In this document: positions 3,953 to 64,000 of the stretch, one piece after another
Layout: every line of letters begins with the position of its first letter
How positions within the stretch are numbered: the first letter of the stretch is position 1
NCBI GenBank assembly: GCA_037178625.1
Contig: CM074149.1
Coordinates: 1,488,001 to 1,552,000, forward strand
Length of the DNA: 64,000 nt
Direction: 5' to 3'
DNA from: Skeletonema tropicum
Taxonomy: Eukaryota; Bacillariophyta; Thalassiosirophyceae; Thalassiosirales; Thalassiosiraceae
The notes under the pieces: model-generated
Database searches by the model: none
What the model saw: the letters and a program-made list of their open reading frames with translations, nothing else
What the model was told of the DNA's origin: nothing
Translations under genes and position numbers: made by a program

Positions 3953-4030
3953 GAAGAAATGCAATTCTTCACTGAAAGTGACGCAAATGAATAAATCTGG
4001 CTTTGAAATATGTATTCCATAAACTAGAGG

Positions 4031-4462: not shown

Positions 4463-4582
4463 TATTATCTAGAGCAAAAAAAAACACCTTCTCCCTACGA
4501 ACCATGGCGGCCGATCTGCTTCCTACCATGCGAGACCATACCCGGAAAGCTGTTAAGTAAGTAGTCATTGGGCAAAGATAGA

Positions 4583-30650: not shown

Positions 30651-33600
30651 TTAGGTCAACTTGACTGGACAATCCAAAGTATCTCCATGCCAGAAAAGTA
30701 GAGGTTGAAGGACCTGCCAAACGTATATCGTATTCCAGACTTCCCACTTCAACAAGTAATCGCTAATCTCAAAGAACATCTGAGCAGTAAACTTATTATT
30801 GTGTGAAGTTGTTTCCATAATGGTTGGTATTTCCAGTAGCTCTTGATAATCATTGATCTGACCTGTAGGTGTATGGTCTTGATAATCCTTGATCTGTCCT
30901 GTAGGTGTAGGGTATTGGATGAGTAGTTCTTCCTCCTTTGGACTAGGTAGACGTAGATCGGCCATAGAAAATGTGGACGATAAAGCATTGTGATTGTTCG
31001 CGAAGGGCCTATTGCCGTTTGTGACTTGTGAGAAGGGCCTATTGCCGTTTGTGACTTGAACTTCAAGGTATATATGGTCATCCGCGACTTGGTAATGAAG
31101 TTGATCGTATTCATCAAAAATGCGAACACTTGAAGAGAACCCTCTCTCGGGACTTCTAACAAAGAACCTGAAGCCACACACAAAGATATCGACAAAGAAC
31201 CCACCATAGAGCCGATTGCATCGGGTGATAATTCTGCTTCCGACGATGATTTCGTGGTAATTAGTGCGTGATGCATCCATAAGTTCTTGAATAGCTGCAC
31301 GTTTGCTGCGCTCCCCATGATTGAGACCGAGACGATGACGTTCGTAACTCACGAGATCAGGATGAAGAACCGAATTGACTTGATTCCGAATAACGTAGAT
31401 ATTGCGCTTCCTATCAACAATCCTCGATGCAAAACGTGCAATCATCATGTGACGAGAGTCACTGTCGATACTTACCAAAATAGCACCATATTCAACCATC
31501 AAAATATTACCATATCCAAATTGAGCCGAGAAGATAGCAGAGTTTCCATCACTGATCTGCGACCGAATAATATTTTCTCTCACGGCAGTACCGAGTAAAG
31601 CAAGCATGTTGTAAGATTTGCAAAAGGAAGTATCTTCTGTCGGACGAGTGATATGATGAAGTCGAATAGATGATGATGTCTCCCCATATTCCTCAGCAGT
31701 AACCATGACAGAATGATGTCGATCCAAGAAAACGTTGTTGATGATGACGTTCCGAAGCAAGACGTGATACTGTCGATGACCTCGAGTAATCTCCGCAAAC
31801 GAAAAGCGATGCAACCTGCAAGCGACGACAATATAGATCCTATCAGCAAGGTCTCGAGAATCATGTGAATAGAACTGAGCAGCGAAGTCTTGTAAGGACT
31901 TAAGAACAAGTGCATTGCATTCCGCATCGACTAGTTGTGCTCGATGGTGGTAAAATTCAATCTTCGCAGCAGGAGAACAAACAACAACTTGGCTTCCAAC
32001 GGCAGAATCTTCTTGGATGTCCATCAACTTATAGAGTAGAACTTGCTCCCCATTCTTCGTCTTGTAGAACTGAATTCCATTCGACTCGTAGTACCAAATC
32101 AACTCTGAAATAATAAAGTCTCTCATCTTCGCAGGATAGTGGTAACGTCGTATCATCACAGATAGATATTCAATTGAAGGAATTTGCTCCCCATTCATCT
32201 CGCAGGACAAAAGAAACTCTAAATTAATGAAGTATCGCATCTTCACAGGACAGTACTCTCCAATCATCATCTTGTGATATCGCAGTAGCTCTAAAGCTGT
32301 AGAGACATAAGATATCATGCCACGAACAAATGCATAGCCTTGAATGTGCGAAGGATCATATCGTACAAGTAATTCAAGTACAGACCAAGCGATGGTAATA
32401 AACAAGATCTTGTTGGATGTGTGATCGGAGTTGTGACAACTGTGAGCAAGTATCATGCAACGATCAATCTTCTGGGACTTGTGAGTGATAATAACACCAC
32501 TGGATTCGTCTTGAAAGACATCGATGCTTGTAGTAGATGTCAAGAGTGTCTCCGTTCTCCCGAGTAATGCATATGTCGATTGCAAAACATCTCCCCACGC
32601 AACATGAATCTTGGTCACAAGTTGATTATAGTATCGAACATGTTGTGTCCCTTGCGAAAGATCGTGCAACCAGATAAAGTCGACACTAAAGATTACCATT
32701 ACTCCCCATAGTCTCAAGAGATAATTTGCAAGTATGAGTCCCTCACTACTGGAAAACATCACTCCTCTATTCACAACTAGGAAGTCATGAGTACCATCGA
32801 GTAGATGATCTGCGATGTGACGATGTTCACCAAAGATAACAACATCGATATGCTGTCGCTTGATAGAACTTGTGCCCAGGAACTGAATATCGAGTTTCCA
32901 GAATAGGGTCATCAAAAGGGCGCTGAGGTCATGTTGTCGAAGACAAACTATAACACCGATAGGACGTGTATCCATAGATGGATAAATGTTGGTATTAACA
33001 CCAGAAGGAGTTACCAAAGTACTGAATTCAGAAGGATCCATGATGCGAAGAATAATAACTGCGATCAATTTGTCTCCACCCAATGTAGAAGTGTCGAGAA
33101 TATAAACAGGGGCGCGCAGAATGTGGCGAGCGTGGTAGTGTGGTGGTGCCTGTGGCGGGATCAGCGCGGGCCCTCGGGGCCTGTCGAGTATTGTGTCATT
33201 TTGTAGTTGGCCATTGCACTTTGGTTTGTTAGTCTTTTTACAACGGAATCCGGCTATAAAGTTGCTCTGCAATGACGTCATAGACGTAGTGTATTTGGTG
33301 GACGGTGATGTTCTGGTTTGTTGTGATGTTAGATAATTACTTGAGTATTTACTAAAATTGTGTTGTGCACAATTTTACCAATTCAAATTGTCTTTCTCGT
33401 GATTGACAATTTCTCGAGCTTCTTCGCGGAAATGACAAAACTGACATTCTCCACCTCCGGCGCATCTTTTTTTTTGGATTTTGCCACGTCTGTGTCACTT
33501 CAACTTCAACAACACGTCATTACACCTGAGCTGTTGGTTCTCATTTGTCTGTGAGACGTACGCACGCATTTTCATCGATATTGTGTCACGTTTGTGACAA

Positions 33601-36600
33601 ATTCAATAGACAAAAATTTGTCGGAATTGGTATACACAATTATTTCTCCGTCTATCCATGTCTTTATTCTTTCTCTCTCTGACAGCATTGTTCCTCCTGC
33701 TTCGCTTCGGTGGTCAACCAAAATTGCTTCGGTGCACATTGTCCGTCGCTGTCGATCTATTTGTACATCGCGTTCATTAAGTATTGGTGTATGTAAACCT
33801 CTCTACTTCTTATCAATCTTATTACGCAATCATGATAATTGGCAATACCGATGCTGCTGCCGCGACTTCAACTGTTGGATCTAACTGCGAGGGTTCTCGT
33901 TATTTGATGAGTAATCCTAGCGGCCTTAAGTGGCAGGCAAGCGCAAGTGCTTCAAAGTCATCTGATGCAGTGGCATCGTCTACTTCGACGGAGTTATCTC
34001 ATGTGGGACAGGAGCAGGAGACTGATGCCGATGCCGCGACTTCAACTGTTGGATCTGATGGCAAGGTTCTTCGTTGCTTGTTGAGTCAACCTTGTGGGCT
34101 TAAGCGTCGCGCATGTTCTTCGAAGTCGGCTGATGCTTCGACCTCATCTACTTTGACGGAGTTGTCTCACAGCGGACTGGAGCGGGGACATGTTTCGATG
34201 AAGGCTTCATCTTCTCCTTGTAACTGGAAATGGTATGATTATCCTTGGGCTACCATCCGCACAAACGATCCTATCTTTCGATCCATGACATCATTTGTTG
34301 TCGGTGAGAGTGAGAGTAAAAAGCTTGATAGCCTTCCTTCGTCACAATTGCTGTCTACCGCTTTGGCTGTCTTCAATGTCTTCTGCTTACAGATGATCCT
34401 GGTCGAGCTCGGTGGCTCTAATTTTGGTCTAACCAAAGATGAACTGATTGCAAGAGTGGTAAACTTGTTGATGGATCGAGAGAACTTGGAGATGACCGAT
34501 CCAAAATGTGACAAAAATGTGAAATCGGGGTGAGTGCCTACATTTAACCCTATATTGGGTTAATGAACAGTTCGTAAAACTGTGCAGTGAACAATTTTAA
34601 CAATTAATCCAATCCCGACCTGCATACTCTCAACTTCGCAGGACCAAGGATAGTGAGGTCAAAAAAGACTTCTGGTGAGAATCTGATACTTAGTGCTTAA
34701 CCCTGCTCGTATGGGGTTATTTATTTCTGTGCCGTGATTACTTTTTGCTGAAGCATCATCTGGTATCTGTCGTTTCTTGCAACTTACCAGTCATGTTGAA
34801 TCCAATCCCGATTTGCATACTCTCTACTCACTCATACAGGGCTGAGGATCTCCTAGTCACGAACACAAACTGTGCTCAGCCACAGAAACAACAGCAAGAC
34901 GAACATGCTGCAAACAATTTACACGCAGTTAGCAACCAAGTTGGGCCTAAGACCAAACCTAGTGAGTTTTGCTCTCAGAAAAGCTGTTCCTGTTCCTGTG
35001 CTGAGTTCTTTTGTTTTTGTGTCTGTGTCTGTGCTGTATCTCTACAACATTAACATTATCACTTTCACGTTCACGAACTCACAATAAGTAAATTTGCTCA
35101 CTGCACAATTTTACCAATCCACCAGCTTGTCGTGTATCATTACCGCACATCGTACTTTTTGTGACGTGCTGGTTGCAGGATGCGCTTGGTGTTGAACAAT
35201 TACGCAATGTAGGAATAGGGAAGAGGGTAATTCAAAATCAAAGCAAATCTGTCGCACAGAAATTGGAGGATGTGCACCGCGAGTCGAGGATACAATTCAA
35301 TGCCAAAAAAAAGAGTCGATCGAAGTCATTTAATGTTGTTATTGTTGTGGTGGTGGCGTTGGCCAGCATCGTTACTCTACAGAAGCACCCTGTCGGTAGC
35401 TCTAGTGTGAACTCATATTGCGTCAGTCTAGTTAAAAATGGTATACGAAGACAAAGTCAGGAGAATGAGATCTCTGCCCAATCAGGAGCTGCACCAGTTG
35501 TGGATGACAACGAGTCCCAATGCTTCGTTCTGCCTTTCAAGACGACCAATCAAAGTCTCTTGATGACAGACAGATGTTCGTCGGACCTATTCTTCAGGTT
35601 GACGAAACTCATGGGGAACAGAGACGAGACATCGTTCGCCGCATATTTCGAGAACTCACTTGCGGACAGTATCAAAAGGAAGTCACTTGTTATTCACGAT
35701 ATGGATATGACAACGCTAAAGCCGGAACAGTGCTTAAACGACTCCGTTCTGAATTTTTGGTTCAAGTGGATCACAACGCCCAGGAGTCCACATGATCAGG
35801 CTTCGTCTGTGTACATCTGTTCGACTTATCTCTTGTCAGGGGTTTTGACCGAGGGGTATAGCGATAGGATGAAAAAGTTTTTGAACAAGGTCAATATCTT
35901 CAAGAAGAAGATCGTAAAGTTCCCAGTTCATCTTGCTCATCACTGGAGTCTAGTTGCAGTGTTGAATCCAAATCTGATACAACAAACCAAGACGAGGTGG
36001 GGGGATTCGAGTTACACAAGAGATATCACTGCTATGATACACTTGGATTCTCTTGGGAGTGGCACTGTGCACAGCAGGAAACTAGTAGCGCAAGCTGTTC
36101 GATCTTTGGATCTTCCCGTTGGGCATCTGCTATCTCCTTGACGGTGACTGGGTAAATTTCCTCGTCATCGGCTGCTGAATTTGCAAACACATGTGACATG
36201 CAATCCTTTGGCTCTATCACATCTTCTCTATCCAGAACACACTCATCATCGTTTTGATAATGAGAGAAGAGAGAGACCAGCTTATTCCACTTGCGGTGAG
36301 AATATTCAGACCTGAAGTTCCCTTTGCTGTCGAGTTCGTCTTCTGGATGAGGGTTGATTTTTGGGCAATAATCTAATCGACTAATGGCATCAGCAACGGT
36401 ATTATCAACACCCTTGATGTACCTAATGTCGGCTCCATACTCATTGAGGAGTAGATTCCATCTCTGCACTCTGTCAGAGGTGCTGCCTAAGCTATCTCGA
36501 ACGAGATTCTGATGATCTGTATAAATCACCAGCTTCTGTCCAAGCAGCATACCTTTGAATTCTTTCAAGAGTTCGACGATAGAAAGCAATTCAAGTTCCG

Positions 36601-39600
36601 TCACAGTGTACTTCATTTGCGCGGCAGTTAACTTCCGGCTGAAAAAGGCAATGGGACGGTTATTTTGCGTAATCACTCCCCCAAGCTGGCGAGTTGAAGC
36701 ATCAGTAAAGATAGTGAACTCTTCACCGAAGTTCGGGTAGGCCAGGATAACATCTCGGGCGATTACCTTCTTGATCTCATCAAAAGCATCCTGATGAACC
36801 TGCTCCCACTGCCACGGCGGCTTCTTTTTGGTAGAGCGTTTAGTGGTTCCACATTCTCCAACTAGATCAGTGAGTGGAGCGAGGAGCTGTGTTCTTGACA
36901 CCCACAAGTCACGGTAATACTGAATAATACCGAGGCAACGTCGAAGATCTTTCACGTTACGAGGTGGTTTGAGAGCAAGGATAGCGGTGACTTTGGAATG
37001 TTGTGGTGCAATTCCTTGTTTGGTGAGATGATACCCAAGGTAATCAATCTCTACGGCTGCGAATTTACTTTTGGCTGCGTTGACTTGCAGACCAGCGTCG
37101 CTTAATTTTTGTAATACCACGTCGAGTTTCTCCAGGTGGTCTTCAAAGGTTCCTTTGGATAGGCAGAGCAAATCATCAATGTAAGCCTGCACGTAGTCCA
37201 ACTCAGCAAAGAGTGAACTCATTTTACTTTGGAAGATGTCCAGGCTACAAGCAACTCCCATTGGAAGTCTTTTGTACCTGTAAATTCCCCAAGGAAATAC
37301 AATGGCGCAAATCTTCATCGTCTCGAGATCAAGCTTCAAATGGTAATATCCCATATTGAGATCAATCGCTGAGGCAAAAGTAAAGCCTTCCATCTGTTGC
37401 AACATACCCGATACCTTAGGAAGCGGGAAGGGGCGTCGCACTAGCGCTTTGTTAAGCTGGCGGAAGTCGGAGAGGAAGCGGACTGTGCCGTCTGACTTAG
37501 GAATAATAAAAGATGGACTGAGCCAGTCTGCTTGTTGTACCTGCTCCAGAACTCCTATATCAATTAAGCGTTGAAGTTCTTTCATAATTGTTGCTTTGTG
37601 TATCTGTGGGACATCAAACGGTCTACCACGGAACGGTTTCACATCTGGCTTAAGCTCAAAATGGACTTCCTCACCTTTCCATTCACCGAGAGATCCGCTA
37701 AACATCTTCTCATGTTTCTTGAGTAAGTTGAGTAGTTGAAGTCTCTGCATTCTGGAGAGATGAGAGCAATTTTCATCGACGATCTTTTCTAGATCGGCGG
37801 CTTCATACTTGGCATCCAAAATCTTGACGGCTCTATCAGTCTCCTCTTTAGTTGACTGAGGCTCTAGGGCTTCATTGTAGATGTTCATCAAGACGTTTTC
37901 ATCTTTGAATTCGTCCTTGTTTTTCATAGGACGGGAGATGCCATCAATTTCAAGGACTTTCTCTTTGAAATGCATAGTAACTCCCCAAGCATGAAGGGTT
38001 TTAACACCAATAATGGCGTCGTATTGAACGCTCCTCCTGTTGTGGATGCGTCTGATGTCAGCAGTACAAGACATAATCTTACTTTGAGAATACTCCGGAA
38101 GCAAGAAAGATAGTTCTGCGACTTCACTTGTGTTGAACTGGCCATTGGACGTGGTCCACACATTTGGATGAGCTAGAGGTATAGGGTCAAAAGCCTTTAC
38201 TTCTTCATCCGGCAGAAAGATGATGTCATCATCTGCACCGGAGTCAAGTAATAAAACCAAGGGGCGTGAGTTACGGTTTCCCTTCTTGGTCAGGGACGCT
38301 GCGACAACAACAGTCTTAAGTCCATTTCCCCTGATTACTTTTTGACGAAGCGATGCGTTCATGTCTTTTACACCGCTCCAATCGGGTATGACACCTTTAA
38401 TCGGCGAATGGTCAAGGTTATACAAATCAAAATCGATAGTATTAGGTTTCCTTCGTTTAACTGAACGTTCATAAGAATCAGATTCATTATTTAGTTTTAA
38501 GTTTCTATTTTCCATTCGAGTGTCGGACCCAATGATTCAATAGTCATCTCGACGGCGATAGCTACGGCTGCGTCGATGGTATTCAGGACTACGAGAGCGA
38601 GACCTAGAGCGAGAACAAGAGCGCTCACGTCGGTCATGCCTGTAATGATCACGGCCGCCACCACCAGAACGCATGTCTCTGAGTGCGGCTGCAATTTCGC
38701 TTTTGATGAGGTCCTTCACAGATCCTTCTTCTTTTTCGTGATCGCGTAGTTGACGGTTTTCACCATCACGCCTCTTCTTTTGACCATTGACTTCGTAGTT
38801 GCGGCATTTATTCGTAGGATGGGTAAACCAAGCGTTGACTCCATTCTTCTGACAGTTGCCACACCCACCTTCTTTGGGATTTTCAGGCGTAGGTTTAGTA
38901 CTTGGATTGCCACCACCCCCACCTCCACCGCCACCTCCACCATTCTTCTTCTGGTTTCTAGGGTTGGGGTTGGAAGCTCCGTTCTTGGTAGACTTATCCT
39001 TTTCATTTGAAGCGCGTTGGGTCTTCTGATGAGCCAAGATGGCGTCAATGCGAGCGACCAAAGGCTCCAGCTCTGTTTCAAGTGGACGATTTGGAGACGT
39101 CACTCGAAGAGAATCCCTAACCTCTCTGGGCATGCTGGCCAAGACAATCTTGCACAGCTCCACTTCGTTGTAGGGAACATTGGCACGTGGAATATCATCG
39201 TTGTCCGCGTACTGTTCATCATCTTTGTAGGTGGTAAGGAGACGTAGATATTGATTGATTGCTGTGATCATCCCTACCCAAGCCTTGCATGTGAATGCAC
39301 GATGGAATTTAATGTTGGATTCCAAGTAGCTTCTGGTTGCTTCCGCGAGGCCATAACCATGTTGCTCGACTAACAATAAATTAGCGCACTTGAGAATATC
39401 CTTAAGAGTTTTCAAACGAGGCCCTGTTTCTGCTTGAGTGCAGAGCATCGCTTTACGACACATCAAGTAGTCTGATGTTTCGTCTTTGTCATCGAAGACC
39501 GTCCCTGTGTAAGACATCAGAGGGATCATTATTTTGGAAGAGTCCATGGCGTCCTTGCAAAATGCATGGTTGACTGCCCTCCACTTCGTCACTTGGTGCG

Positions 39601-42600
39601 GCTCACCCTGATTGAAGTAGTTGTCGATGATGACAGCGAATTTCTTATCGAAATGACCCATGAGCTTTCCAAGCATACCTCCTGCACGTTCTGCATGTTA
39701 GAAATGATAAAGTCACTGTCCCAGTAATCGATTACTGGGACAGTGACTTTATCATTTCTAACATAATGCAAGTCACCAGTTCGAGTCCAGCGAGGTAAAA
39801 AGCCTCTATTTCCCACCTAGAGAGAGGTATGGATAAGAGGAAATACTACTGCGGGTAGGCGGACTAGGAGATAAAGATCTAGCTAGAGGAATACTAGTAC
39901 TGTAATTCCCACTAGATGTAGGTGTACGCTGCAAGGTGTGACCTGCGCTAGCCTACTCCTGTCTCCAGTAATCGACTAGAGATGGCATGGACTTACGGTC
40001 CTGTCAAGGCTCGTAATCCTGTCATCAGTCTAGGAACGGACTGGTGACTTGCATTATGTTAGAAATGATAAAGTCACTGTCCCAGTAATCGATTACTGGG
40101 ACAGTGACTTTATCATTTCTAAAACTGCATTATCATTCAGAGCGTTCACATGATGGCTGATTTGCTTTTTATGCTGCGAGAGTGTCTTTTTCAATTCGTC
40201 GATGTCCTTCTTAGCGAGAGGATCACCGGAGATACCGTTGAATTTGTTTGCGATGTCGGCTTCTAGCTCGGACGCTTTTTGTTGATGGGAGATGAGTTGA
40301 GTCATGAGCTTCTTCTCGTGATCGTCCCAACCAAGCTCGAAGATTAGACTTTCATATTCGATGAGTTTGAGTACCATGTAGGTATGTTGTCCAACATTGT
40401 GAGGAAGGGAATAGTACGTTACCGTAGTTTTGGCATGATTAGTTGATCCGCCATCGATAGTCCATTTCCGACCATTGGCAATCTTGGCAACTGGAAAGAT
40501 GGGAAAGACGACTTTGTCTTTATCCTCGATGTATCCACGAGTTACCTGAGATTCTTTTGGCCGTTTGTCCTCGGTGAGAGTGTTGTAGGCCAAGTAAATC
40601 GAAGCTAATTCATTTTGCGACATGATAATGATCAGTCCTTCTGATATTTCACCAGGATGGAAGATTCTTCTCGTTTCGAGGTATCTGTTAGCTTTCTGCG
40701 GTGCTTGTCGACGAGAGCACTTGTTATTTTAAAATAATGACACAGGCTAATAGATGTGTAATGACAACGACGATGAATACAGTATTAATTTACGTATTTG
40801 GAGTAGTTGTGTGCTCTTCGAAGGAGAGAGCTGCTGCTAGCGGTAGAGTTGCTCGTGTAAGCCGAGTGACTCGGAATGCTATTGGACAGAAATCGTACTA
40901 ATTCCAAGACGTAGGCTGTTAGTAAGATTCTCTAAGCTGACTGCTTCAATGTAGTCAGAATCCAGAGCGGCATGCGTCAGGCATGGAGATCCCGATAAGC
41001 GATAGCTTAGCGAGCACGTATCCGTATGGTCACAGATACATACGTACCTAAAGGTAGTATGCTACTTGACTATTACATATAGCGATAGGATGAAAAAGTT
41101 TTTGAACAAGGTCAATATCTTCAAGAAGAAGATCGTAATGTTCCCAGTTCATCTTGCTCATCACTGGAGTCTAGTTGCAGTGTTGAATCCAAATCTGATA
41201 CAACAAACCAAGACGAGGTGGGGGGATTCGAGTTACACAAGAGATATCACTGCTATGATACACTTGGATTCTCTTGGGAGTGGCACTGTGCACAGCAGGA
41301 AACTAGTAGCGCAAGCTGTTCGAAACGTCCTCAACGCAGAATGGAGAAGGCATCACGGGACGACATTAGATAGTAGCTATCAGATGCCGTTCACACATAG
41401 ACACAAGTCGTTCCAGTTGCACTGCCCTAAAGGTGAGTGTAATCTATTTGGTTTTCATTTTCATTGCGCAGAATTGAGTACTGCCTTTGTTTTGTCATTG
41501 ACATACATAGGACTAATCTGTCATTCTTCGTCTGTATCTGTATCTGTATTCTTCTAGTCGGCCCTCGGGGCCCCGGGTCGAAACAAGCGCAGTGAAGTGT
41601 CGATAACGGGGCCAGGAGGTGCCCAACCCCTTATGGTCACAAATTCTCCATTTTTTTCCAAACTTTTTTCTACAGGGATCTTGGTAGGAATCAGTATAGT
41701 AGCTGTTTAGTGAGAAAGTTTACCTGGTGGACACGTAGAGGCTCTGTAGACCATACCGCTGTAGGATTTGTACTTGTTCCTACGTAGAAAGCAAGAAGTA
41801 CCTGGCTTAAACGCGCTTTTTACAGAAATTGATTGGCTATATCTGTCGAGGATACCATCATTTGCAGAAAGAAATACAGGTACATTGTCATTATAGGTGA
41901 CATGTTTCTTCATCACGAGAAATATTCTCCCTTTGTTGTATCCTTTATTGATTGTCGTTAATTTGTCATGTTGCCGCGATTGATAATAAATTTGTCTTGA
42001 AGACAAATTTATTTTCCATGCAAGTTGTGAATATCGCATTGTATCGTCCACTAGGCAAAATAATCGCGTGGCAATTGGTATTCTTTCTTCGTTTCTTTCC
42101 ATTTTTTGTTTGGGCTGGTTATGATTTCGGTGATGCGGTTCGTCAGGTCCTCTCTATTCTTTATTAAAGTACCACTCACTGCCTTTTGATAAGTTGTTTT
42201 CGTCATTTCATCAAGCTTTCTTTTGTTGTATCTTGTCTTGGTTTCTTCTGCCTTGCCGTCAAGGTACTTGACCCATTTGTCCCGCTTCTTGAAGAGTTTG
42301 CAGAGTTGGCCATCTTGGTTCGTCTTGCAATTGTGTAACCGTTCTACAGACACGCTCGGCCCTGTCCAATAAATGGCACTATCCGTCGGGTGCATAACAT
42401 TTTTGGAACCAAGTGTTTTGCCCCTGCTGGTAGCAACGTATCCTGTCCCAAGGCACTGGCTTCTCTCCCAGAGCTCATCTGACGGATCTATCACCATGCG
42501 ATTCCATCGATCGTCCTTGCCGAACCCGGCCTCCATGCCCTGGCAGCGGTGTATTGTGATTGCGAATGCAATTTGCAGGGGCATGAACGTGGCAGTACAG

Positions 42601-49787: not shown

Positions 49788-49792
49788 GTGTG

Positions 49793-50756: not shown

Positions 50757-51196
50757 GTGGGGTGGTGTGGTGTAGTGGTATCACCGCCTCTCTTCTGGTT
50801 CGGGGTCTTGGGTTCGAGTTTCCCCCGTGCCAAATCCTGGCTGTTTGAGGTGTCGCAGCTCGGAGTGCGATCTGGGAAAAAAGACCATTAATTGGTTTGG
50901 AATTTCATATCACTGCCTCTTTGCTAATTCCGGGGTGATGGAAAAACTGTTCGTTATTTGCTTAATTACACTCGAAGGGTAGTAACTTGTGACATTGCTC
51001 TAGATAAACAGGGGCGCGCAGAATGGTGCAATAGTGGTGGCGTGCAGCGGTGTATGTGGCGGGTTCAGCGCGGGCCCTCGGGGCCTGTAAAGTATTGTGT
51101 CGTCATCTTGCTGTTGGCCATTTGCTGTGTGGCTTGTCAGTAGTCTTTATACAACGGAATTCGGCTATAAAGTTGCTCTGCAATGACGTTGGCCTT

Positions 51197-51233
51197 AATT
51201 GGTATAATTGTGCTGTGCACAATTTTACCAATT
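51197..51233. repeat. Long recurrent hairpin near E3 left end
   Basis: AATTGGTATAATTGTGC and GCACAATTTTACCAATT form a 17-bp arm with one mismatch and a 3-base loop. In E5 the same hairpin (57555-57583) has lost the innermost 8 bases (CTGTGCAC). Confidence 0.9.
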
Positions 51234-51289
51234 AGTCTCTTTACAATAGAATACGGCTATAAAGTTGCTCTGCAATGACGTTGTCAATC

Positions 51290-52431: not shown

Positions 52432-54485
52432 ATGAAGTTTGGCAACACAAATCCAGTTATATCCACCGTTGGTAGTAATGGTAAGGGCTTCCGTGCCGTG
52501 CGGAATCGGAGCAATGTCGATGCACGTCTTACTTCGTCAGGGGTCAAGACTGCCGCTAAACCGTCGGCTCCTGTCATTGCATTGAGCGTAACAGACATCA
52601 ATTGGCGTTTGGTGCGTACCGACGATCGTATCTTCTTGCTGCTAGCGTCTGTTGCATTAGGCGATGGGTTTGACGTTGCCAAGTTGGAGAAGGAACAACT
52701 GCTCTTTTCTGCTCTTTCCGTCTTTGAAGTCGGGTCAATCAAGTACATCCTGAATGAACTGTCTGAACATTACCCGAATGTCCCAGTTGGTAAGACTGAT
52801 TCTACTGACAAAGATGATCTGGTGTCTGCAGCGGTCAACTTCTTAATGTTTGCCGCTATTGCTCAGAAAGGAGGTACAAGCCAAGCGCCGTACACTTCAA
52901 ATTGTGAGCATTTTTGGTAAGAGAGAAGGTTAACCTTCGTGTGGTTCAATGATTTTGGTATTTTTGTTCATTGTACCGTTTTACAAATTCTGTCTTTCCT
53001 TTTCAACCTTCAACTTCACACCAGTGATGAGAACGGGAAACTTGTACTTGAAGACAAAACTCATTCGGGCTCCCGTGATCAGCCTGTTCAACAAGATGAT
53101 GATGAACCGGATTTGTCCGAGAAAGGTGCTGTCACGAAAAAGTCTAAACCGGTACCTGTCGGAGAGAAGGCCTCTCCTGATTCAACTATCATGTGAGTTT
53201 ATTTTGTGTGCATGTGCACTGCCGCACTAAGTATCGCTTGCTTATTGAATCATTTTAGTATAATCGATCACTGAACAATTTTACCTAATAAACAAATGCA
53301 ACTGCCTACGTAGACATGCTGATCAAAACACACGAACGACTGAAAGTACCAATAGCTAGGCTCAGGTGTCAATTCAGCAGCAGGATGGCGGGCAATAACA
53401 CAGCATACCAGTTGCACTTTTACGGCAGGAGGCTATTCTACACCTTTGATGTGTGCGTAGGTGCACATGTTTGCTTGGAGTCAGCCAACATCGATCCCAA
53501 CTCAGGATTGTACGTCTCAGCTATTGGGGTAGTAGTCGAGATCGTTTACGATAAGGATCGCTCCGTTGGACCAAACGGTAAAGGTGAGGTTAGCCTACCG
53601 AAGTACATTGTTGTGGATTTCCCTACATACAAACCACCACCAGGCGAGGACCCATGGGACAAGAACAACCCAACGGTGAGTAAAAGTTGACACACGAAAG
53701 ACACAAGACAATTGCCACTCTCTGCGAAAACACTACTAACTCATTTCATACTGATACAAATGCATCCTACCCCAACTTATTGCGCACAGCACGTGCCAAT
53801 CCCACCCTACGAGCAGATTTGCAACAGGGGATGCTGCACCGCATTATTCATGCCATTGCAAATTGCCTACGCCATCACCATCCACCGCTGTCAAGGACTC
53901 GAAGCTGGATTCGACAAAGGAGACCGCTGGAACCGCATGGTAATAGATCCAGCAGATGAGTTGTGGGAGATTAGCAAGTTTCTTGGAACAATGTACGTGG
54001 CTACCAGCAGAGGCAAAACACTTGGCTCCAAAGATCAAGCATACCCGTCGGACAGTGCCATATACTGGACCGGAAGCAACATTTCAACGAACCGATTAAA
54101 AAATTGCAAGAGAAAGCAAAATGGCCAGTTCTGCGAATCGTACAAGAAGCGAGCAAATTGGGTGAAATACTTGGAGGGGAAGGCAGAAGAGTCGAAGACG
54201 AGGTATAGCAAGAGAAAGTTAGAGGAAATCACAAAAACATCATCCGCAGCAGCAATCAAGGGCGATTTCATCAAAGACAGGACAGACCTGACAACCAGGA
54301 TTACTGACATCATAACCCGAACAAGAAGTGGAAAGAAGCGAAGAAGGATCATGAAATCCCAAGTGATTACTTCGCAGGATCTTCATCTGGTGATTAGTAA
54401 AATTGATCACTGCACAGTTTTACAAAACAGACACTTTCTCACCACAAAGAATACAACAACTCAATTAAGCGTCTGCATCTGGTGA
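52432..54485 (+). CDS. E3 gene: shared N-terminal domain and helicase C-terminal half, frameshifted
   Basis: Exons: 52432-52916 (KFGNTNPVISTVGSNGKGFR; WRLVRTDDRIFLLLASVALG), 53025-53192 (DENGKLVLEDKTHSGSRDQP), about 53314-53675 (helicase, VCLESANIDPNSGLYVSAIG) and 53790 onward (AYAITIHRCQGLEAGFDKGD; MYVATSRGKTLGSKD). Introns are GT-AG, and two of them contain the hairpin motif. Frame across 53192/53314 is not certain, consistent with deletion of the middle of the ancestral gene. A 4-base deletion at about 54316 relative to E5 (AACCCGAAC versus AACCAACCCGAAC) shifts the last 50 or so codons. It would make a helicase-tail protein without an ATP-binding site, so it is probably non-functional in transposition. 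Confidence 0.75.
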
Positions 54486-55000
54486 TCAGTAAAACATCTG
54501 CAAGCGCACGATTCGATATATCAAGCACAGTTTTACAAAAAGACATTTTCTCGCGACGAAGAAAGACAAAAACTAAATCGACTAACGCCCGTGTAAAACC
54601 TGTATTTCTTTCTCGTACAGACCGATATAGATGCTCAAAAAGCGCATCTAGTACAGTCAATTTCTCGCTTTCAACAGGTACTTCTTGCTTTCTACATAGG
54701 AACACATACAGATCCTACGCCGGTAGTCTCTACCGAGGACTCTACGTGTCCCTAAAGTAAACCTTCTCACTAAAAAACACATGTACTGATTCCTACCTAT
54801 AACTCTGTAGAATAATGGGGGTGAAAAATAATGAATTTTCCCACCTGTAATAGAAGGGCACCTGCGGCCCCCTATTACGCTGCTCTGCACTCCATGAACG
54901 GGGGCCCCGAGGGCCGATAATTGTAGATAATTTCGCCCCTGGAGGGCCAACCATGACGTACTTTAAGATTTCCGTTAATTTTTTTCACTCTCCAACGGTG

Positions 55001-55523
55001 CATCGGTAAGATGTCCACCAGCAACAATCCTAGCCTTTCTCCTTCCATTGTGCTTACAAGCATACACAATGTGTAGCCGAATCTTCTTGTAGCCTGGTGG
55101 TTCTCGTGTGGTACTGCGATGGCCTCGATCCTCAAAAACATTGTATTCAAACATTTGATCTACTTCCTTCTTCTCAGCATCCTGCCAAAGAGTATCGCCA
55201 TTCTCCTCATCAAACTGCACTGCCTGCTTGTGATTCCTAGGAACCTTCACTCCGAACATGTAAATAGGAGTGTTCTTGTAGCTCTTGCGTTTCGCCTCAT
55301 TCACCATACGCATTAGTTTCTTAGAGTTGTTCGCAAGTTTCTTCAACTTCCCAACCTGGGACACTGCTTCTGCCATTCATCCAATAGATCATTATCTCTT
55401 GCATATTCCGCAACAAGAAAGTTATTGGTATCGTAGATGACGGTGATAGGCTCATACGTGATCTCCCCAGACTCCCAAAGAATAAGTACTTGAGGTATCT
55501 CTCCCCGTGTTCTAGTCCTCTTA
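55001..55523 (-). pseudogene. Copia B pol, start of RT domain
   Basis: The minus strand reads MFGVKVPRNHKQAVQFDEEN, LWQDAEKKEVDQMFEYNVFE and EPPGYKKIRLHIVYACKHNG, the conserved entry of the copia RT domain, preceded by GEIPQVLILWESGEITYEPI. The 5' end is cut at 55523 by E4. The join to 50756 is in the expected order. Confidence 0.85.
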
Positions 55524-56670
55524 TGAAATGGTGCGCGCGGCGATTTGTGACTGCATGTTGTGTATGGTGTGTAGTGCGGCGCGGGCCCTCGGGGCCTGTT
55601 TTTTTTTTGTGCAATGTACCCGTCTATAAATTTGCTCTGCAATGCTTGTTGTTGTAACATAAATGTGTCATGATGACAAAATTATTCTGTGGATTTCGTG
55701 TTGGATTTTTTTTTGCAATGTATCCGTCTATAAAGTTGCTCTGCAATGCTTGTTTAATAACATTCTTATAACAGAAACGTTTTATAGTACATACTCACTT
55801 ACTTACTTAGAGCCGTTCCAAGCAAAATTGCATCGTAGATGCATAAGATTTTGATAGCAGCTAACAAAAAAGTGCAGCGCGCTTTCCGAGCACAACTGCA
55901 TGCATGCATGTTTTTTCGTTCGACAGTCAGTATCTAACATCATAGCCGCTACTCTCATAGCCACCACGTTGCACAAACCCTACCAATAGTAATATCCAGT
56001 GAACTATATCGCAGACAACACCCTTTGCAACTATTCAGCCGCAGGGTTTTATTATTACAACTGTCTACACCGCATAAATAAATGACTAATACATGCTACA
56101 TAAATGTCATTTCTGTCTATGATGTTGCTATTTTTATCCAGCCTATTGCAATATTATGGACAATAAATAGCCGACACTTCTTATATATAATAATGTTGAT
56201 GAGTTGCGGTCTTTAGAGCCGCTCGATCCGCCGTCTACAGGCTTATTGTTGTGTTAGAGTGTCAAATTATTTATGCAATTTTGTGCACATCTTGTGTCCT
56301 TGGTATTTTGGAGGTGTGGGGGGGCTTTAATGGTCATTCCGAGCAACCAGAATCTCACTTCATATTATCATCGGCGATGGGTAGCGGAGGGGTAGTGCCT
56401 ATAGATGTTTATCATCTTCGATGGGTGCAGGGAAGGTGGTTGTTTTCATTTCAAATCTCAATGAAGTGGATTGCAATGATATTATCTCCACCCCTACAGC
56501 AGCCGAAACGCCACACTGCTGCGAAAAAATCGCCATAATGTCGTTTAAGGGATGGGCCATCGATACCTTATGAAATATACTCATGGACTGAGATAGGCGG
56601 CCATACTAGGGGTGCCATTGTAGGCCATTGTGGTGGCATCTTTTTCTCTTTTTCTGCACGATCATCGATC

Positions 56671-56970
56671 ATGCAAAAACCGAGTTGGCTTTTTGACGAA
56701 ATAATTTACCGATCGCGTTTGACAGTACTTTATACCGATCGCGTTTTACATATTCTCAAATATATGACGTCACTTGTTCCTCTCCTAACTTCAACGTGTC
56801 AGCTTCTCTGCTGGCAGGAAGAACATGTCGCCATCCGTGACTTTTCCGCGCAGCCACTCATCGACTATCATGCTACGGAACACCACATGCAATTAGAAGA
56901 GTGCATAAATAATAATGAGTGGCTTGCGTATGACATTCCTCGCACGCAAATCAATATCTTAAATATGTGA
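56671..56970 (+). CDS. E4 small ORF (99 aa)
   Basis: Same protein as E2 45651-45950 (QKPSWLFDEIIYRSRLTVLY...). No family recognised. Confidence 0.35.
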   Translation: MQKPSWLFDEIIYRSRLTVLYTDRVLHILKYMTSLVPLLTSTCQLLCWQEEHVAIRDFSAQPLIDYHATEHHMQLEECINNNEWLAYDIPRTQINILNM

Positions 56971-57830
56971 CCATTACGGACCGGCATAACCAAACCACGA
57001 ACAAAATTGACCGTATAAAATATGCACACTTCAAGAGAGAAAGCGCAGCAACAGCAACCATCCTCTTCCGACGTGAACAGCAAGAGCGCTCGGAAGGGTG
57101 TTAGATGCTCATTTCTGTCTATTCGTCAAATAATTTACAAAGTCCAATGGCCGAAAGTGCGTGTAGGCGATCATATCTTCCGCGAAATAGTAGAATTACA
57201 ATCATCGCGCAATCCATGCTTCGAACACTCTACTGATCCACATACTCTTCTGAGGCTTGTTCTTTCCTCTTGCAATATGCGTGAACTAAAACATGTATTG
57301 TCTGAGCTAGGATGCGTAATGGATCTATATCGCACCAGACAGGAACAATTATCTATCGCTTATTAAACAGGGGCGCGCAGAATGGTGCGATGTGGTGGCG
57401 TGCAGCGGTGTATGTGGCGGGTTCAGCGCGGGCCCTCGGGGCCTGTAAAGTATTGTGTCGTCATCTTGCTGTTGGCCATTTGCTGTGTGGCTTGTCAGTA
57501 GTCTTTATACAACGGAATTCGGCTATAAAGTTGCTCTGCAATGACGTTGGCCTTAATTGGTATAATTGTGAATTTTACCAATTAGTCTCTTTACAATAGA
57601 ATACGGCTATAAAGTTGCTCTGCAATGACGTTGTCAATCTTTATCAATGTGAAAAGAAATGTCTTGAATGCAATAAGCCACGAAGTCCTTATTACAAGCT
57701 AGGAGTTTTTCCAGATGATGGTAGTAAGCAATATAACCGAACTCTTTATGATTCATTAATTACGAGTTTCGGTGGAGCTTAGCCACCTTCATCAGCGGTT
57801 CTAATTGCGTGGAGACAGGCCACAAAAAAT

Positions 57831-58046
57831 TTGAATCAAAAGGTCTCAAGAATGAGAAAAGGCGTGGTAGCTGTCATTGTTCTAACGGTCGTAAGTTTTG
57901 TTGGCGTTTCGTGGGCGTGGGCCAGCGTACAAGGCATATCTTTTCCATCGGGGAGATCCAAAGTAGCGAGCAAATTACTTCCGGAACTTCAACTTGAAGT
58001 GTTGGGATTTTCCCCCCTCCTATCCCCGCTGAAATGCCCATTTTGA
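57831..58046 (+). CDS. E5 short membrane-type ORF
   Basis: RKGVVAVIVLTVVSFVGVSW gives one hydrophobic segment after a basic start, followed by GISFPSGRSKVASKLLPELQ. The same frame is broken in E3 by a 20-odd base difference. It may be chance. It is listed because it resembles a signal anchor. Confidence 0.25.
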   Translation: MNQKVSRMRKGVVAVIVLTVVSFVGVSWAWASVQGISFPSGRSKVASKLLPELQLEVLGFSPLLSPLKCPF

Positions 58047-58765
58047 TTGTCATTTAGATGCTATATCTTATGATTTAGATCTAAAAATCGCTTGATTTGT
58101 GCTAAAAAGGACTTTTCCAGGCTAATTAAGTCAGATTGTCGATGAGCTTCTTCGTTCTTTCCGGTGTGCATCCCCGTCACCCTCTATTTTCTTAATTTTT
58201 TCTCTGAGTGACGTGGTAAACTTCGTTACTTAAGGAATTAGTACACTTGATTCCAATCGTCTTACGTCACAAAGTACCAGAAGTCAGGTGTTGGCAAAAT
58301 CCAATGAACAAAAAAGTATTTAAGTTCATGCAGCAAGTACTCAGGTCGACATTGGCTCAATTACATTATCTGCCGAGTCGTCTATTGATGCAAGTCTAAA
58401 TAGACGCCGACGTTGGTTGCCGACGTGTTTGCATTTGAATAACTGCCGATCTTTGGCCACGTACTGATCAATACGTCAGTTCTTAACTCCACGTCGACGT
58501 CTTGTGTTGAGCTGAATCTTTTTGTCGACGTGTTGTCGATGTGTTGAACCACAAGATCTTGTGTTGCCGACGTAGCTTACGAAGGAACTCGTTTACTTCA
58601 TGACGTGGTTGGTTATTGATTGCATTGTTCTCTGCTGATTATTGCGCTGGTGCGTTGGCGGCGGTTATGTAGGCAGTTTGTACGTTGTCGAGCCGTTCAA
58701 CAGCTCTCATAAATTATGCATTGCATCATTTACATCATCACATTTCTACATTGTCCGAATAAATA

Positions 58766-60751
58766 ATGAAGTTTGGCAACACAAATCCAGTTATATCCAC
58801 CGTTGGTAGTAATGGTAAGGGCTTCCGTGCCGTGCGGAATCGGAGCAATGTCGATGCACGTCTTACTTCGTCAGGGGTCAAGACTGCCGCTAAACCGTCG
58901 GCTCCTGTCATTGCATTGAGCGTAACAGACATCAATTGGCGTTTGGTGCGTACCGACGATCGTATCTTCTTGCTGCTAGCGTCTGTTGCATTAGGCGATG
59001 GGTTTGACGTTGCCAAGTTGGAGAAGGAACAACTGCTCTTTTCTGCTCTTTCCGTCTTTGAAGTCGGGTCAATCAAGTACATCCTGAATGAACTGTCTGA
59101 ACATTACCCGAATGTCCCAGTTGGTAAGACTGATTCTACTGACAAAGATGATCTGGTGTCTGCAGCGGTCAACTTCTTAATGTTTGCCGCTATTGCTCAG
59201 AAAGGAGGTACAAGCCAAGCGCCGTACACTTCAAATTGTGAGCATTTTTGGTAAGAGAGAAGGTTAAATTTCGTGTGGTTCAATGATTTTGGTATTTTTG
59301 TTCATTGTACCGTTTTACAAATTCTGTCTTTCCATTTTACTTACAAGTTTTTTTTTCAACCTTCAACTTCACACCAGTGATGAGAACGGGAAACTTGTAC
59401 TTGAAGACAAAACTCATTCGGGCTCCCGTGATCAACCTGTTCAAGATGATGATGAACCGGATTCGTCCGAGAAAGGTGCTGTCACGAAAAAGTCTAAACC
59501 GGTACCTGTCGGAGAGAAGGCCTCTCCTGATTCAACTATCATGTGAGTTTATTTTGTGTGCATGTGCACTGCCGCACTAAGTATCGCTTGCTTATTGAAT
59601 CATTTTAGTATAATCGATCACTGAACAATTTTACCTAATAAACAAATGCAACTGCCTACGTAGACATGCTGATCAAAACACACGAACGACTGAAAGTACC
59701 AATAGCTAGGCTCAGGTGTCAATTCAGCAGCAGGATGGCGGGCAATAACACAGCATACCAGTCGCACTTTTACGGCAGGAGGCTATTCTACACCTTTGAT
59801 GTGTGCGTAGGTGCACATGTTTGCTTGGAGTCAGCCAACATCGATCCCAACTCAGGATTGTACGTCTCAGCTATTGGGGTAGTAGTCGAGATCGTTTACG
59901 ATAAGGATCGCTCCGTTGGACCAAACGGTAAAGGTGAGGTTAGCCTACCGAAGTACATTGTTGTGGATTTCCCTACATACAAACCACCACCAGGCGAGGA
60001 CCCATGGGACAAGAACAACCCAACGGTGAGTAAAAGTTGACACACGAAAGACACAAGACAATTGCCACTCTCTGCGAAAACACTACTAACTCATTTCATA
60101 CTGATACAAATGCATCCTACCCCAACTTATTGCGCACAGCACGTGCCAATCCCACCCTACGAGCAGATTTGCAACAGGGGATGCTGCACCGCATTATTCA
60201 TGCCATTGCAAATTGCCTACGCCATCACCATCCACCGCTGTCAAGGACTCGAAGCTGGATTCGACAAAGGAGACCGCTGGAACCGCATGATAATAGATCC
60301 AGCAGATGAGTTGTGGGAGATTAGCAAGTTTCTTGGAACAATGTACGTGGCTACCAGCAGAGGCAAAACACTTGGCTCCAAAGATCAAGCATACCCGTCG
60401 GACAGTGCCATATACTGGACCGGAAGCAACATTTCAACGAACCGATTAAAAAATTGCAAGAGAAAGCAAAATGGCCAGTTCTGCGAATCGTACAAGAAGC
60501 GAGCAAATTGGGTGAAATACTTGGAGGGGAAGGCAGAAGAGTCGAAGACAAGGTATAGCAAGAGAAAGTTGGAAGAAATCACAGAAACATCGTACGCAGC
60601 AGCAATCAAGGGCAATTTCATCAAAGACAGGACAGACCTGACAACCAGGATTACCAACATCATAACCAACCCGAACAAGAAGTGGAAAGAAGCGAAGAAG
60701 GATCATGAAATCCCAAGTGATTACTTCGCAGGATCTTCATCTGGTGATTAG
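58766..60751 (+). CDS. E5 gene: shared N-terminal domain and intact helicase C-terminal half
   Basis: Exons: 58766-59250 (as in E3), about 59379-59542, about 59664-60025 and 60140-60751. The final exon is intact here and reads TETSYAAAIKGNFIKDRTDL, NPNKKWKEAKKDHEIPSDYF then AGSSSGD and stop, the same ending style as the E2 helicase. Helicase motifs V (AYAITIHRCQGLEAG) and VI (MYVATSRGKTLG) are present. There is no Walker A and no Ulp1. As in E3, the joint between exon 2 and exon 3 is probably where the ancestral middle was lost. Confidence 0.75.
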
Positions 60752-62703
60752 TAAAATTGATCACTGCACAGTTTTACAAAACAGACACTTTCTCAACACA
60801 AAGAATACAACAACTCAATTAAGCGTCTGCATCTGGTGATCAGTAAAACATCTGCAAGCGCACGATTCGATATATCAAGCACAGTTTTACAAAAAGACAT
60901 TTTCTCGTGACGAAGAAAGACAAAAACTAAATCGACTAACGCCCGTGTAAAACCTGTATTTCTTTCTCGTACAGACCGATTTAGATGCTCAAAAAGCGCA
61001 TCTAGTACAGTCAATTTCTCGCTTTCAACAGGTACTTCTTGCTTTCTACATAGGAACACATACAGATCCTACGCCGGTAGTCTCTACCGAGGACTCTACG
61101 TGTCCCTAAAGTAAACCTTCTCACTAAAAAACACATGTACTGATTCCTACCTATAACTCTGTAGAATAATGGGGGTGAAAAATAATGAATTTTCCCACCT
61201 GTAATAGAAGGGCACCTGCGGCCCCCTATTACGCTGCTCTGCACTCCATGAACGGGGGCCCCGAGGGCCGACAATGTCATTTCCAATCGCAACGTTACCT
61301 GTAACGGTTCAAGCTCGGCTCAGTTCTACAAATCGGATGCAGAAAGCAAAGCTGGAATAATGAATTATGGCCGTTGTGTAAATAACAGTCATAACTTGCA
61401 GTCGTTGGCTGCTCCAGAGTGTTCCAGCGTATTGTCTAATGGGTAAGTCCGAAAGTGTATTGTTAAGATGAGCTGAAATTGGAAGAAGCGTCTTATGTGA
61501 TTCAGAATTTCATGTATAAGCGAAACGCTTAACACTGCGTAAAACATTACGTAGAGTGATCGTACGAACATAGGAAGGATCGCTCATTCATCTACATTTA
61601 AGTCGCTTTTTGCTGTGTGGTATTAACCTTCCATAGAGTTCATGCCAAAAATAAAATTGTGATGTATGCAAATTTATTTTAAACTTGAACTGGTATTGTT
61701 TCTCCCATATGAATGTCGTCATGTCAAAAACTAATCACTTATCCTTACTTATCCCTATTTTCATTTACTTCAGCAATGGCGGTGTGACAGCGGGCAACAA
61801 AAAAGATGTTGTCGACAACAACAAGAACGAGCATGATATACCTCTTCTGCAGACAAAGCAAGGCGATTGCATCTCTCCCGCTCATGTTAGATGCACTAAC
61901 TTTGAGCAGGCAGAAGCATTTGATGCATCATGCAAATCATGGAGATCATGCGATAATAATAATGATTATGACGTTGTCGAGCAGGCGAGTTCTTTGTTAA
62001 AGTTAAAGCAATCATCAAAAAATTATGACATCGAACAGCAGTGCCCTAAAGAGAGCAATGGTAGTGCCGCAACTCCAGTGAATACTCATCATCCGTCTGA
62101 AACGGACATACCAGCGTCTACTCCTTCTGATGAGGAGTCAGCAGTTGACCCAACTAATCTTCCGGCGTTGCTGTATCATGCTGGGGAACAACCTGCTACT
62201 GTTCGCGCATATCGCCGCTGCTCAGAAGATCGCAGTCTTGTGGGCCGCCAAACCATTCGCGATCATTTATATGATTCTCCGTCTACCAGTAGACTTCCGC
62301 GCAGCTGTCTCGACCGCCTGTTTCATGAGTCTTCTGGTTCTACCGTGAAGGATTATCCGTGTCGTAATGCTACTTCGGTTGCTAGACTGTCAGGAGAACG
62401 TGATAATGATGGCACCAATATGGGTGTTGGTAATGTTGATAACGCCCCCTTGGAAGCAGACGATGCTGGTGTATTTCGTAGCAATAATGGCAATGCAGCT
62501 CGGCCAGTTGGAGTTGGAGAAATTCCACAGAACACAAAAGCGTCTGGAACTATTGGATCTATGTTGGGAGAGCTGTCGGAAAAGGGAATCCAACGGTGAG
62601 TGAATGTAGAAATGTATTCTTGAATTCGAAATATAGCATGGCACTGATCAATCATCCCTCTTTACACAAATTTGTAATCACTCCACTCCACCACTCCACT
62701 CAG

Positions 62704-63297
62704 CACGTGCCAATACCACCCTACACTCACATCTGCAACAAGGGATGCTGTACTGCCACGTTCATGCCCCTGCAAATTGCATTCGCAATCACAATACACC
62801 GCTGCCAGGGCATGGAGGCCGGGTTCGGCAAGGACGATCGATGGAATCGCATGGTGATAGATCCGTCAGATGAGCTCTGGGAGAGAAGCCAGTGCCTTGG
62901 GACAGGATACGTTGCTACCAGCAGGGGCAAAACACTTGGTTCCAAAAATGTTATGCACCCGACGGATAGTGCGATTTATTGGACAGGGCCGAGCGTGTCT
63001 GTAGAACGGTTACACAATTGCAAGACGAACCAAGATGGCCAACTCTGCAAACTCTTCAAGAAGCGGGACAAATGGGTCAAGTACCTTGACGGCAAGGCAG
63101 AAGAAACCAAGACAAGATACAACAAGAGAAAGCTCGACAAAATGACGAAAACGACTTACCAAAAGGCAGTGAGTGGTACTTTAATAAAGAATAGAGAGGA
63201 CCTGACAAACCGCATCACCGAAATCATAACCAACCCAAACAAAAAATGGAAAGAAGCGAAGAAAGAATACCAATTGCCACGCGATTATTTTGCCTAG
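62704..63297 (+). CDS. E4 helicase exon 2, first copy
   Basis: Equivalent to 43233-43826 in E2, placed behind the passenger gene and its borrowed splice donor. It contains AFAITIHRCQGMEAG and GTGYVATSRGKTLGSK. It is out of frame with the preceding exon. Confidence 0.75.
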   Translation, partial: HVPIPPYTHICNKGCCTATFMPLQIAFAITIHRCQGMEAGFGKDDRWNRMVIDPSDELWERSQCLGTGYVATSRGKTLGSKNVMHPTDSAIYWTGPSVSVERLHNCKTNQDGQLCKLFKKRDKWVKYLDGKAEETKTRYNKRKLDKMTKTTYQKAVSGTLIKNREDLTNRITEIITNPNKKWKEAKKEYQLPRDYFA

Positions 63298-63338
63298 TGG
63301 ACGATACAATGCAATATTCACAACTTGCATGGAAAATA

Positions 63339-63367
63339 AATTTGTCTTCAAGACAAATTTATTTTCA
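63339..63367. repeat. 29-bp palindrome downstream of helicase (E4)
   Basis: The same AATAAATTTGTCTT/AAGACAAATTTATT palindrome as in E2 lies about 40 bases after the helicase stop. Confidence 0.85.
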
Positions 63368-63485
63368 ATCGAGCATTATGACAAATTAACGACAATCAAT
63401 AAAGGATACAACAAAGGGAGAATATTTCTCGTCAGAAACGGCTGTCAGTACCGGTAGCACGGCTCAGATGCCAATTCAAGAGCAA

Positions 63486-64000
63486 CATGGTTGGCAATCC
63501 CACTGTGTACCAGTTGCATTTCTTCGGCAAAAAGATGTTGTACACTTTAGACGTTTCCGTTGGTGTGCACGTGTGCCTGGAGACAGCGAACATTGATCCG
63601 AACTCTGGCCTGTACGTTGGAGCGATTGGGAAGGTGATTGACATCGTTTATGACGAGCAGCACTCCGTAGGACCAAACACAAATGGTGTTGAATCCCTCC
63701 CAAAGTATATAGTCGTTGATTTCCCATACTTCAAACCGCGGCAAGGCATTGAACCCTGGGACAAAAAGAATCCAACGGTGAGTGAATGTAGAAATGTATT
63801 CTTGAATTCGAAATATAGCATGGCACTGATCAATCATCCCTCTTTACACAAATTTGCAATCACTCCACTCCACCACTCCACTCAGCACGTGCCAATACCA
63901 CCCTACACTCACATCTGCAACAAGGGATGCTGTACTGCCACGTTCATGCCCCTGCAAATTGCATTCGCAATCACAATACACCGCTGCCAGGGCATGGAGG
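63486..64000 (+). CDS. E4 helicase C-terminal half, two-exon copy, cut by window end
   Basis: Exon 1 runs from ATG 63486 to 63777 (VGNPTVYQLHFFGKKMLYTL; VCLETANIDPNSGLYVGAIG), then the GTGAGT intron, and exon 2 begins at 63886 (HVPIPPYTHICNKGCC). The window ends inside motif V. Upstream of the ATG the frame continues as PVARLRCQFKSN, showing that the real helicase once extended further. Confidence 0.85.

Follow-up and report, generated by a model that had tools for sequence, protein, structure and literature searches.

The 64,000-nucleotide stretch of Skeletonema tropicum DNA analyzed here (C23:1488001 to 1552000; below, the window) contains five related segments, designated E1 to E5, which are broken, shortened, and nonautonomous copies of large rolling-circle elements of the Helitron superfamily (Table 1). 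Their layout was derived from comparison of the window with itself and from mapping of family sequences onto it, and the genome searched was the 78.4-Mb assembly of 125 contigs. E1 carries a Ulp1-like protease with the motifs HHWSL (35938 to 35952), HLDSLG (36040 to 36057), and QNNGYDCG (47106 to 47129), as an earlier reading of this DNA (the original prediction) had proposed, and its protease exon matched Peptidase_C48 in Pfam (PF02902; E, 3.5e-8). The helicase motifs AITIHRCQG and YVATSRGK, which the same reading had assigned to the other segments, start at 53871 and 53994 in E2, at 60221 and 60344 in E3, at 42563 and 42440 in E4 (minus strand), and at 62785 and 62908 in E5. Its further proposal, that a Ulp1 protease and a PIF1-type helicase were parts of one ancestral element, was borne out at nine loci outside the window, where both are found together with an HUH Rep.

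Table 1. Features of the E1 to E5 region (window positions; F2, second family; a slash marks an insertion point)
Feature	Positions	Strand	Basis or remark
E1, Helitron copy, head end TAAACAGGGGCGCGCAG, tail end GGGGCCCCGAGGGCCGA	33103-48708	+	Ends and family-1 mapping
E1 ORF1 N-terminal frame, unnamed domain	33784-34533	+	Domain common to E3 and E2
E1 Ulp1 (C48) protease exon B, part 1, catalytic His (HHWSL) and Asp (HLDS)	35161-36102	+	Pfam PF02902 and motifs
Gypsy-like gag/pol insert in E1 protease	36103-41077	-	gag/pol named by eye
Empty target site TTTGGCTCTA/TCACATCTTCTC (CTCTA/TCACA) in gypsy-like insert	36207-36228	+	
E1 protease exon B, part 2	41078-41433	+	Start repeats 35857-36102; ends at GTGAGT donor
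E4, second-family (F2) Helitron relic nested in E1 protease	41558-47100	-	F2 mapping, junctions read
E1 protease exon C, QNNGYDCG with catalytic Cys	47101-47537	+	End inferred from homologous donor
E1, start of exon bearing DUF6570 in full-length copies	47694-48102	+	76.9% to family 1
E1 tail, helicase gene end and 3' terminus	48116-48708	+	94% to family 1
E2, deletion derivative of family 1 in which the ORF1 head adjoins the helicase end	51005-54917	+	98.1-98.8% to family 1
E5, inverted segmental duplicate of E4 (42530-47116), split by E3, cut by window end	55505-64000	+	Self-comparison
E3, family-1 deletion derivative, inserted in E5	57363-61271	+	Family-1 mapping; empty site near window 45259

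A genome search with the helicase and protease sequences for a longer element, which the original prediction had suggested, recovered the full-length form. The search with the E3 helicase end covered the best 150 of 450 candidates, while 67 matches were obtained among 83 candidates with Helitron_like_N for Rep and 49 among 78 with the E1 protease. The Rep matches were divided at a score gap into 38 strong ones (E up to 1.6e-8) and 29 weak ones (E of 2.4e-6 and above), 28 of the latter representing another Helitron type. The comparison, into which the first 64 helicase matches (of 150) were entered, showed the protease, Rep, and helicase in this order on one strand at 10 loci. The protease-Rep gap was 2821 bases at nine of these, the tenth (C3, near 943 kb) having a fragmented protease, and the Rep-helicase gap was 3113 or 3116. 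When the second family was counted, the protease lay 2.7 to 3.0 kb upstream on the same strand at 29 of the 38 strong Rep matches. Among the weak matches, there was one upstream protease in 29, at C3:3871073, a fragment of a family-2 copy, and hence 0 in 28 independent cases. None of the 67 Rep matches had a protease on its downstream side, or on the other strand, at a distance of up to 6 kb. A wider set of 144 C48 matches (best 150 of 169 candidates scored) contained no further C48 within 12 kb upstream of a weak Rep, and only two other C48 loci lay within 12 kb of a Rep at all, both of them downstream (9.0 kb from a weak Rep and 11.2 kb from a strong one).

The second family has the same gene order and a protease that is 54% identical to that of the first; its protease and Rep recur together, and the copy in C5 also has the helicase. 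When each head was paired with the nearest tail on the same strand (61 pairs), the head-to-tail distances were 19,832 bases in C6 and 19,837 bases in C10, whereas two other copies with all parts measured 24.5 kb (second C6 copy) and 25.4 kb (C3), perhaps owing to later insertions. Ulp1 stands in the place of the OTU protease of Helentrons, as had been proposed: the genome has seven OTU loci, none of which is within 20 kb of a Rep match. Two outcomes that would have spoken against a common element were absent, in that no full-length copy with an unrelated transposase was found and profile searches did not separate the protease from the helicase elements.

The domains were assigned in both families. 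PF02902 scored above the Pfam cutoff in each (4.6e-10 in family 1), and in a single-sequence search against solved structures the protease had SENP2 as its first-ranking match (8.5e-13). The database protein P0021 aligned with SENP2 (9.1e-16) across the His, Asp, Gln, and Cys residues, through the DCG motif. Exon B had 25 protein matches among 5479 candidates, 21 of them at 38 to 100% identity; P0022 was a weak match, and P0023 to P0025 are annotated as a hypothetical protein or as ubiquitin-like proteases of the host. The His and Asp columns were invariant in an alignment of 22 protease sequences, consisting of those of E1 in the window, C3, and C5 and of 19 of the 25 database matches (P0005, P0016, and P0022 to P0025 were left out). 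The catalytic Cys is located in the next exon for most sequences and inside P0020 and P0021, and the Gln and DCG were found in exon C of E1, family 1, and family 2, as well as in P0020 and P0021. The protease is assigned to the Ulp1/SENP (C48) family, the characteristic residues His, Asp, Gln, and Cys all being present, and may cleave SUMO. Judged from sequence comparison, it is under purifying selection; by simple counting, the ratio of nonsynonymous to synonymous differences per site (pN/pS) was 0.39, 0.38, and 0.37 for three protease pairs, in two of which synonymous sites were saturated, and 0.16 and 0.24 for Rep and the helicase, respectively. A structure model of P0021 built with 19 sequences was poor (mean predicted local distance difference test score, 48.5) and was not used.

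Rep of family 1 matched PF14214 in Pfam (E, 8.3e-21) and contains FAPGRGQIHLHLLG and a YVVAY pair. A Helitron Rep with HLH lies upstream of the helicase in both families, where a search for an HUH motif had been advised. The helicase of family 1 matched PF05970 (E, 2.6e-17) and has the motif GMGGCGKS. An HUH Rep and a PIF1-type helicase, the combination by which the Helitron superfamily is recognized, both scored above the cutoff in both families. No Pfam match to an AP-type endonuclease C-terminal to the helicase was obtained in L011:1-1398, window:60062-60748, or L075:3-2060.

In family 1, the first frames are those of open reading frame 1 (ORF1), namely, a head domain of 163 amino acids (aa) and a 965-aa frame. 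Protease exon B (443 aa) follows, and then exon C, which contains the Cys; DUF6570 lies in the next frame (653 aa), Rep in one of 480 aa, and the helicase in the last two. The order in family 2 is the same, with the helicase in a single 948-aa frame. Splice candidates with GT(A/G)AG-type donors include introns B-C (83 nt) and C-D (92 nt), which are in phase 1 and equal in length and phase in both families, and introns D-E and E-F, which are in phase 2 in both families and differ in length. Since the phases are equal between families, the protease and the Rep-helicase protein (RepHel) are probably made as one spliced protein. ORF1 is probably a separate gene, because no such junction to exon B was found and a stop codon ends ORF1 in both families. 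No Pfam match above the cutoff was obtained for ORF1, and Pfam lent no support to the impression, gained by eye, that the head domain of E1 and E3 is SAP-like. The original prediction placed one N-terminal domain in all intact heads. This held for E1 and E3 (BLASTP, 3e-11; score reached by 0 of 1000 shuffles), and the E2 frame has the same sequence as E3 in this region, but the head sequence of E4 and E5 differs. When the E4 head part was compared in translation with families 1 and 2 and with E3, the matches were only short and weak (best, 3.8e-6), and the head domain was not among them.

The ends are shared genome-wide, as was claimed for the window: there are 190 occurrences of the 20-base head end AAACAGGGGCGCGCAGAATG, against 0 of its reversed control, and 208 of a 17-base tail word, against 0 of its control. 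Pattern searches gave 132 head sites (T excluded at the first place) and 149 tail sites (A excluded at the last place), with at least 96 distinct sites among the 100 listed in each case. AAACAGG is preceded by T in 95 of the 96 listed heads, with A (74) or T (17) one base further out. The last A of the tail is present in 95 of the 96 listed tails, followed among the 96 distinct listed sites by T (71) or C (17) at +1 and by A (92 of 96) at +3. Helitron copies of 19.8 kb (C6:480735/460908) and 8.9 kb (C3:921891/930827) fill the site that is empty in the gypsy-like insert (Table 1), and the empty site of E3, CGCTTA/CAATG, lies within window 45225-45300; the E3 head has one additional T. At both empty sites, insertion was after A (A/T and A/C), without target-site duplication and not at the T/T of Helentrons. 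The inverted match GGCCCTCGGGGCC, 13 nt in E1 to E4, lies near the tail terminus and 61 to 69 nt inside the head; in the C6/C3 pair, the only one shuffled, it is 10 nt (maximum of 11 and mean of 6.7 in 500 shuffles). The 5' TC and 3' CTRR ends of Helitron1 were not seen, the ends being TAAACAGG and GGGCCGA; the reversed reading starts with TC and ends with CTGTTTA. These end traits are those of rolling-circle elements, and the chemistry would be that of other Helitrons. Three tail words were also found in tandem in C8 (2897382, 2897565, and 2897748), at a spacing of 183 bases.

Which domains the element carries, in what order, on which strand, and at what spacing is directly supported in two families, as are the shared ends, the insertion after A, and the constraint on the protease. 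E1 to E5 are very probably relics of Helitrons, with ends most like those of Helitron2, whose full-length form encodes an N-terminal ORF1 and a second, spliced gene for a Ulp1/SENP protease, DUF6570, HUH Rep, and PIF1 helicase. Transposition would proceed as in other Helitrons, with Rep nicking and joining single-stranded ends, the helicase unwinding the DNA, and the host filling the gap. The protease, probably translated as a fusion with RepHel, could act at the element by taking SUMO or a similar ubiquitin-like modifier off the transposase or off silencing or repair factors of the host; alternatively, it may free RepHel from the fused protein.

Several observations weigh against this reading. 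For the coding region, a single copy of each family was used (C3 and C5, with ORF1 of C5 partly read), and for the head part a third copy, in C6. There were 5 to 16 in-frame GT-AG candidates per junction, the choice among which was made by homology between the families, and the acceptor of the family-2 E-F junction is pyrimidine-poor. Because A ends both the flank and the tail, the cut can be placed one base either way, and whole-end DNA folding was no better than in shuffles for three ends (z, -0.1 to -1.3). Nine of the 38 strong Rep matches have no protease nearby, and none of 249 candidates from the protein database was a fused protease-RepHel protein. This last result would fit a protease that forms a separate transcription unit within the element, unfused to RepHel, as would the stop that closes ORF1 upstream of the protease in both families and the OTU proteases of Helentrons, reported as additional ORFs in the part of PMC4067079 that we consulted. 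The 92-nt phase-1 intron linking exon C to the DUF6570 and Rep exons in both families makes such an arrangement rather improbable.

Rep matches without a protease could also be expected if the protease were a captured passenger gene, carried but not needed by the Helitron, and gene capture is well known for Helitrons (e.g., PMC4289320, in the portion available). This is nevertheless quite unlikely, as the protease is present in two families with introns common to both, is under purifying selection with synonymous sites saturated, and has the 21 database relatives described above. Least credible, to the point of near dismissal, is a merely side-by-side nesting of two separate elements, one with Ulp1 and the other with the helicase. 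The window is heavily nested, with E4 and the gypsy-like insert in E1 and with E3 in E5, and the genome is rich in a further repeat that bears Ulp1. However, spacing and orientation are near-fixed at 29 Rep loci, with wrong-side and wrong-strand controls at zero; E1 is continuous from the protease into the family-1 tail; and the two other C48 loci near a Rep both lie on its downstream side.

As far as the consulted parts of the respective papers go, Helitron2 (PMC3627910) and the Fusarium FoHelis (PMC5148889) have in common with the window family Rep-Hel and the absence of a target duplication; asymmetric inverted repeats able to form hairpins may be a further common trait. The FoHeli1/2 target is TNAT; read from the opposite strand, the window family would have approximately TN(A/G)/T or similar (the second slash marking the insertion point), a TC start, and a terminal hairpin. 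The fit to Helitron2 needs this reversed reading, and some Helitron2 elements are described as having RepHel in the opposite orientation (PMC3627910 and PMC5148889). Chlamydomonas Helitron2 inserts after TTTT, whereas the window family inserts after A. In the text searched, neither "ulp1" nor "protease" occurs in PMC3627910, and "protease" does not occur in PMC5148889. Helentrons with OTU and/or VTD (PMC4067079 and PMC9741609, consulted in part) are likewise rolling-circle elements with a ubiquitin-pathway cysteine protease besides Rep-Hel. Strictly speaking, the window family does not belong to the Helentrons: no endonuclease domain was found behind the helicase in either of the two copies that were scanned, and insertion is after A and before T or C, not at TT; OTU and VTD are, moreover, other protease families. 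The zebrafish VTDs tested reacted with ubiquitin probes (two also with NEDD8) and not with SUMO, according to the section of PMC9741609 seen. Proto-Helentron-Pi of Phytophthora infestans (about 14 kb; PMC4067079, same parts) resembles the window family in its several ORFs, A/T insertion, lack of target duplication, and lack of an endonuclease, but differs in having a SET domain, an intronless RepHel, no protease described there, and the ends 5' TT and 3' CTAG.

C48 proteases are carried, as here, by the transposons Mutator/KIU, Ginger1, Crypton, and NeSL/Utopia (PMC2836005, PMC13317346, PMC3212892, and PMC4640811, in the excerpts consulted), but these are DDE, tyrosine-recombinase, or reverse-transcriptase elements and not rolling-circle ones. 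In the available part of the Ginger paper, the protease given for Helitrons is OTU, and that given for Mutator and Ginger is Ulp1. No published Ulp1 in a Helitron was found in the accessible portions of the open literature on Helitrons, Helentrons, and such proteases, with Repbase outside this scope. OTU and VTD proteases of Helitrons and Ulp1 in other transposons are known, and the pairing of Ulp1 with a Helitron replication gene may be new. We tentatively suggest, with somewhat less than even confidence, that ubiquitin-pathway proteases were acquired by rolling-circle transposons independently on three or more occasions (OTU, VTD, and Ulp1) and that in this lineage the deSUMOylase is a built-in N-terminal domain of the transposase, kept because it removes SUMO from that protein or from silencing factors of the host at the element. 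Ubiquitin- and SUMO-directed proteases recur in transposons of very different mechanisms, and the apparent fusion of protease and replication protein offers a compact system for testing whether the host SUMO system limits transposition.

The window copies differ in how they were shortened. E1 matches the family-1 sequence up to 7624 and again from 13615, and an internal deletion has therefore taken out Rep and the greater part of the helicase; E2 and E3 match family 1 up to 2343 and then from 12597 (98.1 to 99.9% identity). The original prediction had five related insertions; the copies are indeed related, but E5 is not a separate one, since 55505-57362 and 61271-64000 form an inverted copy of 42530-47116 at 99.6 to 99.8% identity, with E3 inside. 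E4 is 96.9 to 98.6% identical to the helicase end and tail of family 2, and its insertion point coincides with the inferred intron/exon border of the E1 protease, ahead of QNNGYDCG; no empty copy of this site was seen. No long terminal repeats of the gypsy-like insert were seen in the window self-comparison. The insert is flanked by a 246-bp direct repeat of its protease target (35857-36102 and 41078-41323), far above the usual length for such elements. Beside its genes (39695-40122 and 40125-41077) are perfect palindromes (arms, 35 and 32 bp) together with an inverted repeat of 86 bp, and window 40125-41077 has at least 39 other near-full-length matches in the genome (best 40 of 559 candidates).

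Two other candidate protease carriers were rejected. The other Helitron type in C22 (1440700-1449600) has one 2388-aa frame with DUF6570 and PIF1, with Helitron_like_N just below the cutoff; Pfam gave no protease match in this frame, and the weak Reps have no upstream protease except at C3:3871073. Among the C48 loci in frames of ~2460 to 2480 aa, the one examined (C2:5101200-5108346; L077:2-7147) resembles a reverse-transcriptase element. This repeat has a single frame, 2381 aa or longer, with a Ulp1 protease (C48 match) at its C terminus; an endonuclease-like start, a reverse transcriptase, and an RNase H-like stretch were recognized in it by eye, and the repeat looks like a non-LTR retrotransposon. 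In NeSL/Utopia, by comparison, Ulp1 is placed at the N terminus (PMC4640811, excerpt). In viral contigs, none of 7 pattern matches to the protease alignment and none of 22 to Rep were confirmed. Near the C6 head (474000-481200; frames within 519-6218 of this segment), a divergent gene on the opposite strand has frames of 222, 493, 529, and 153 aa, without a Pfam match above the cutoff.
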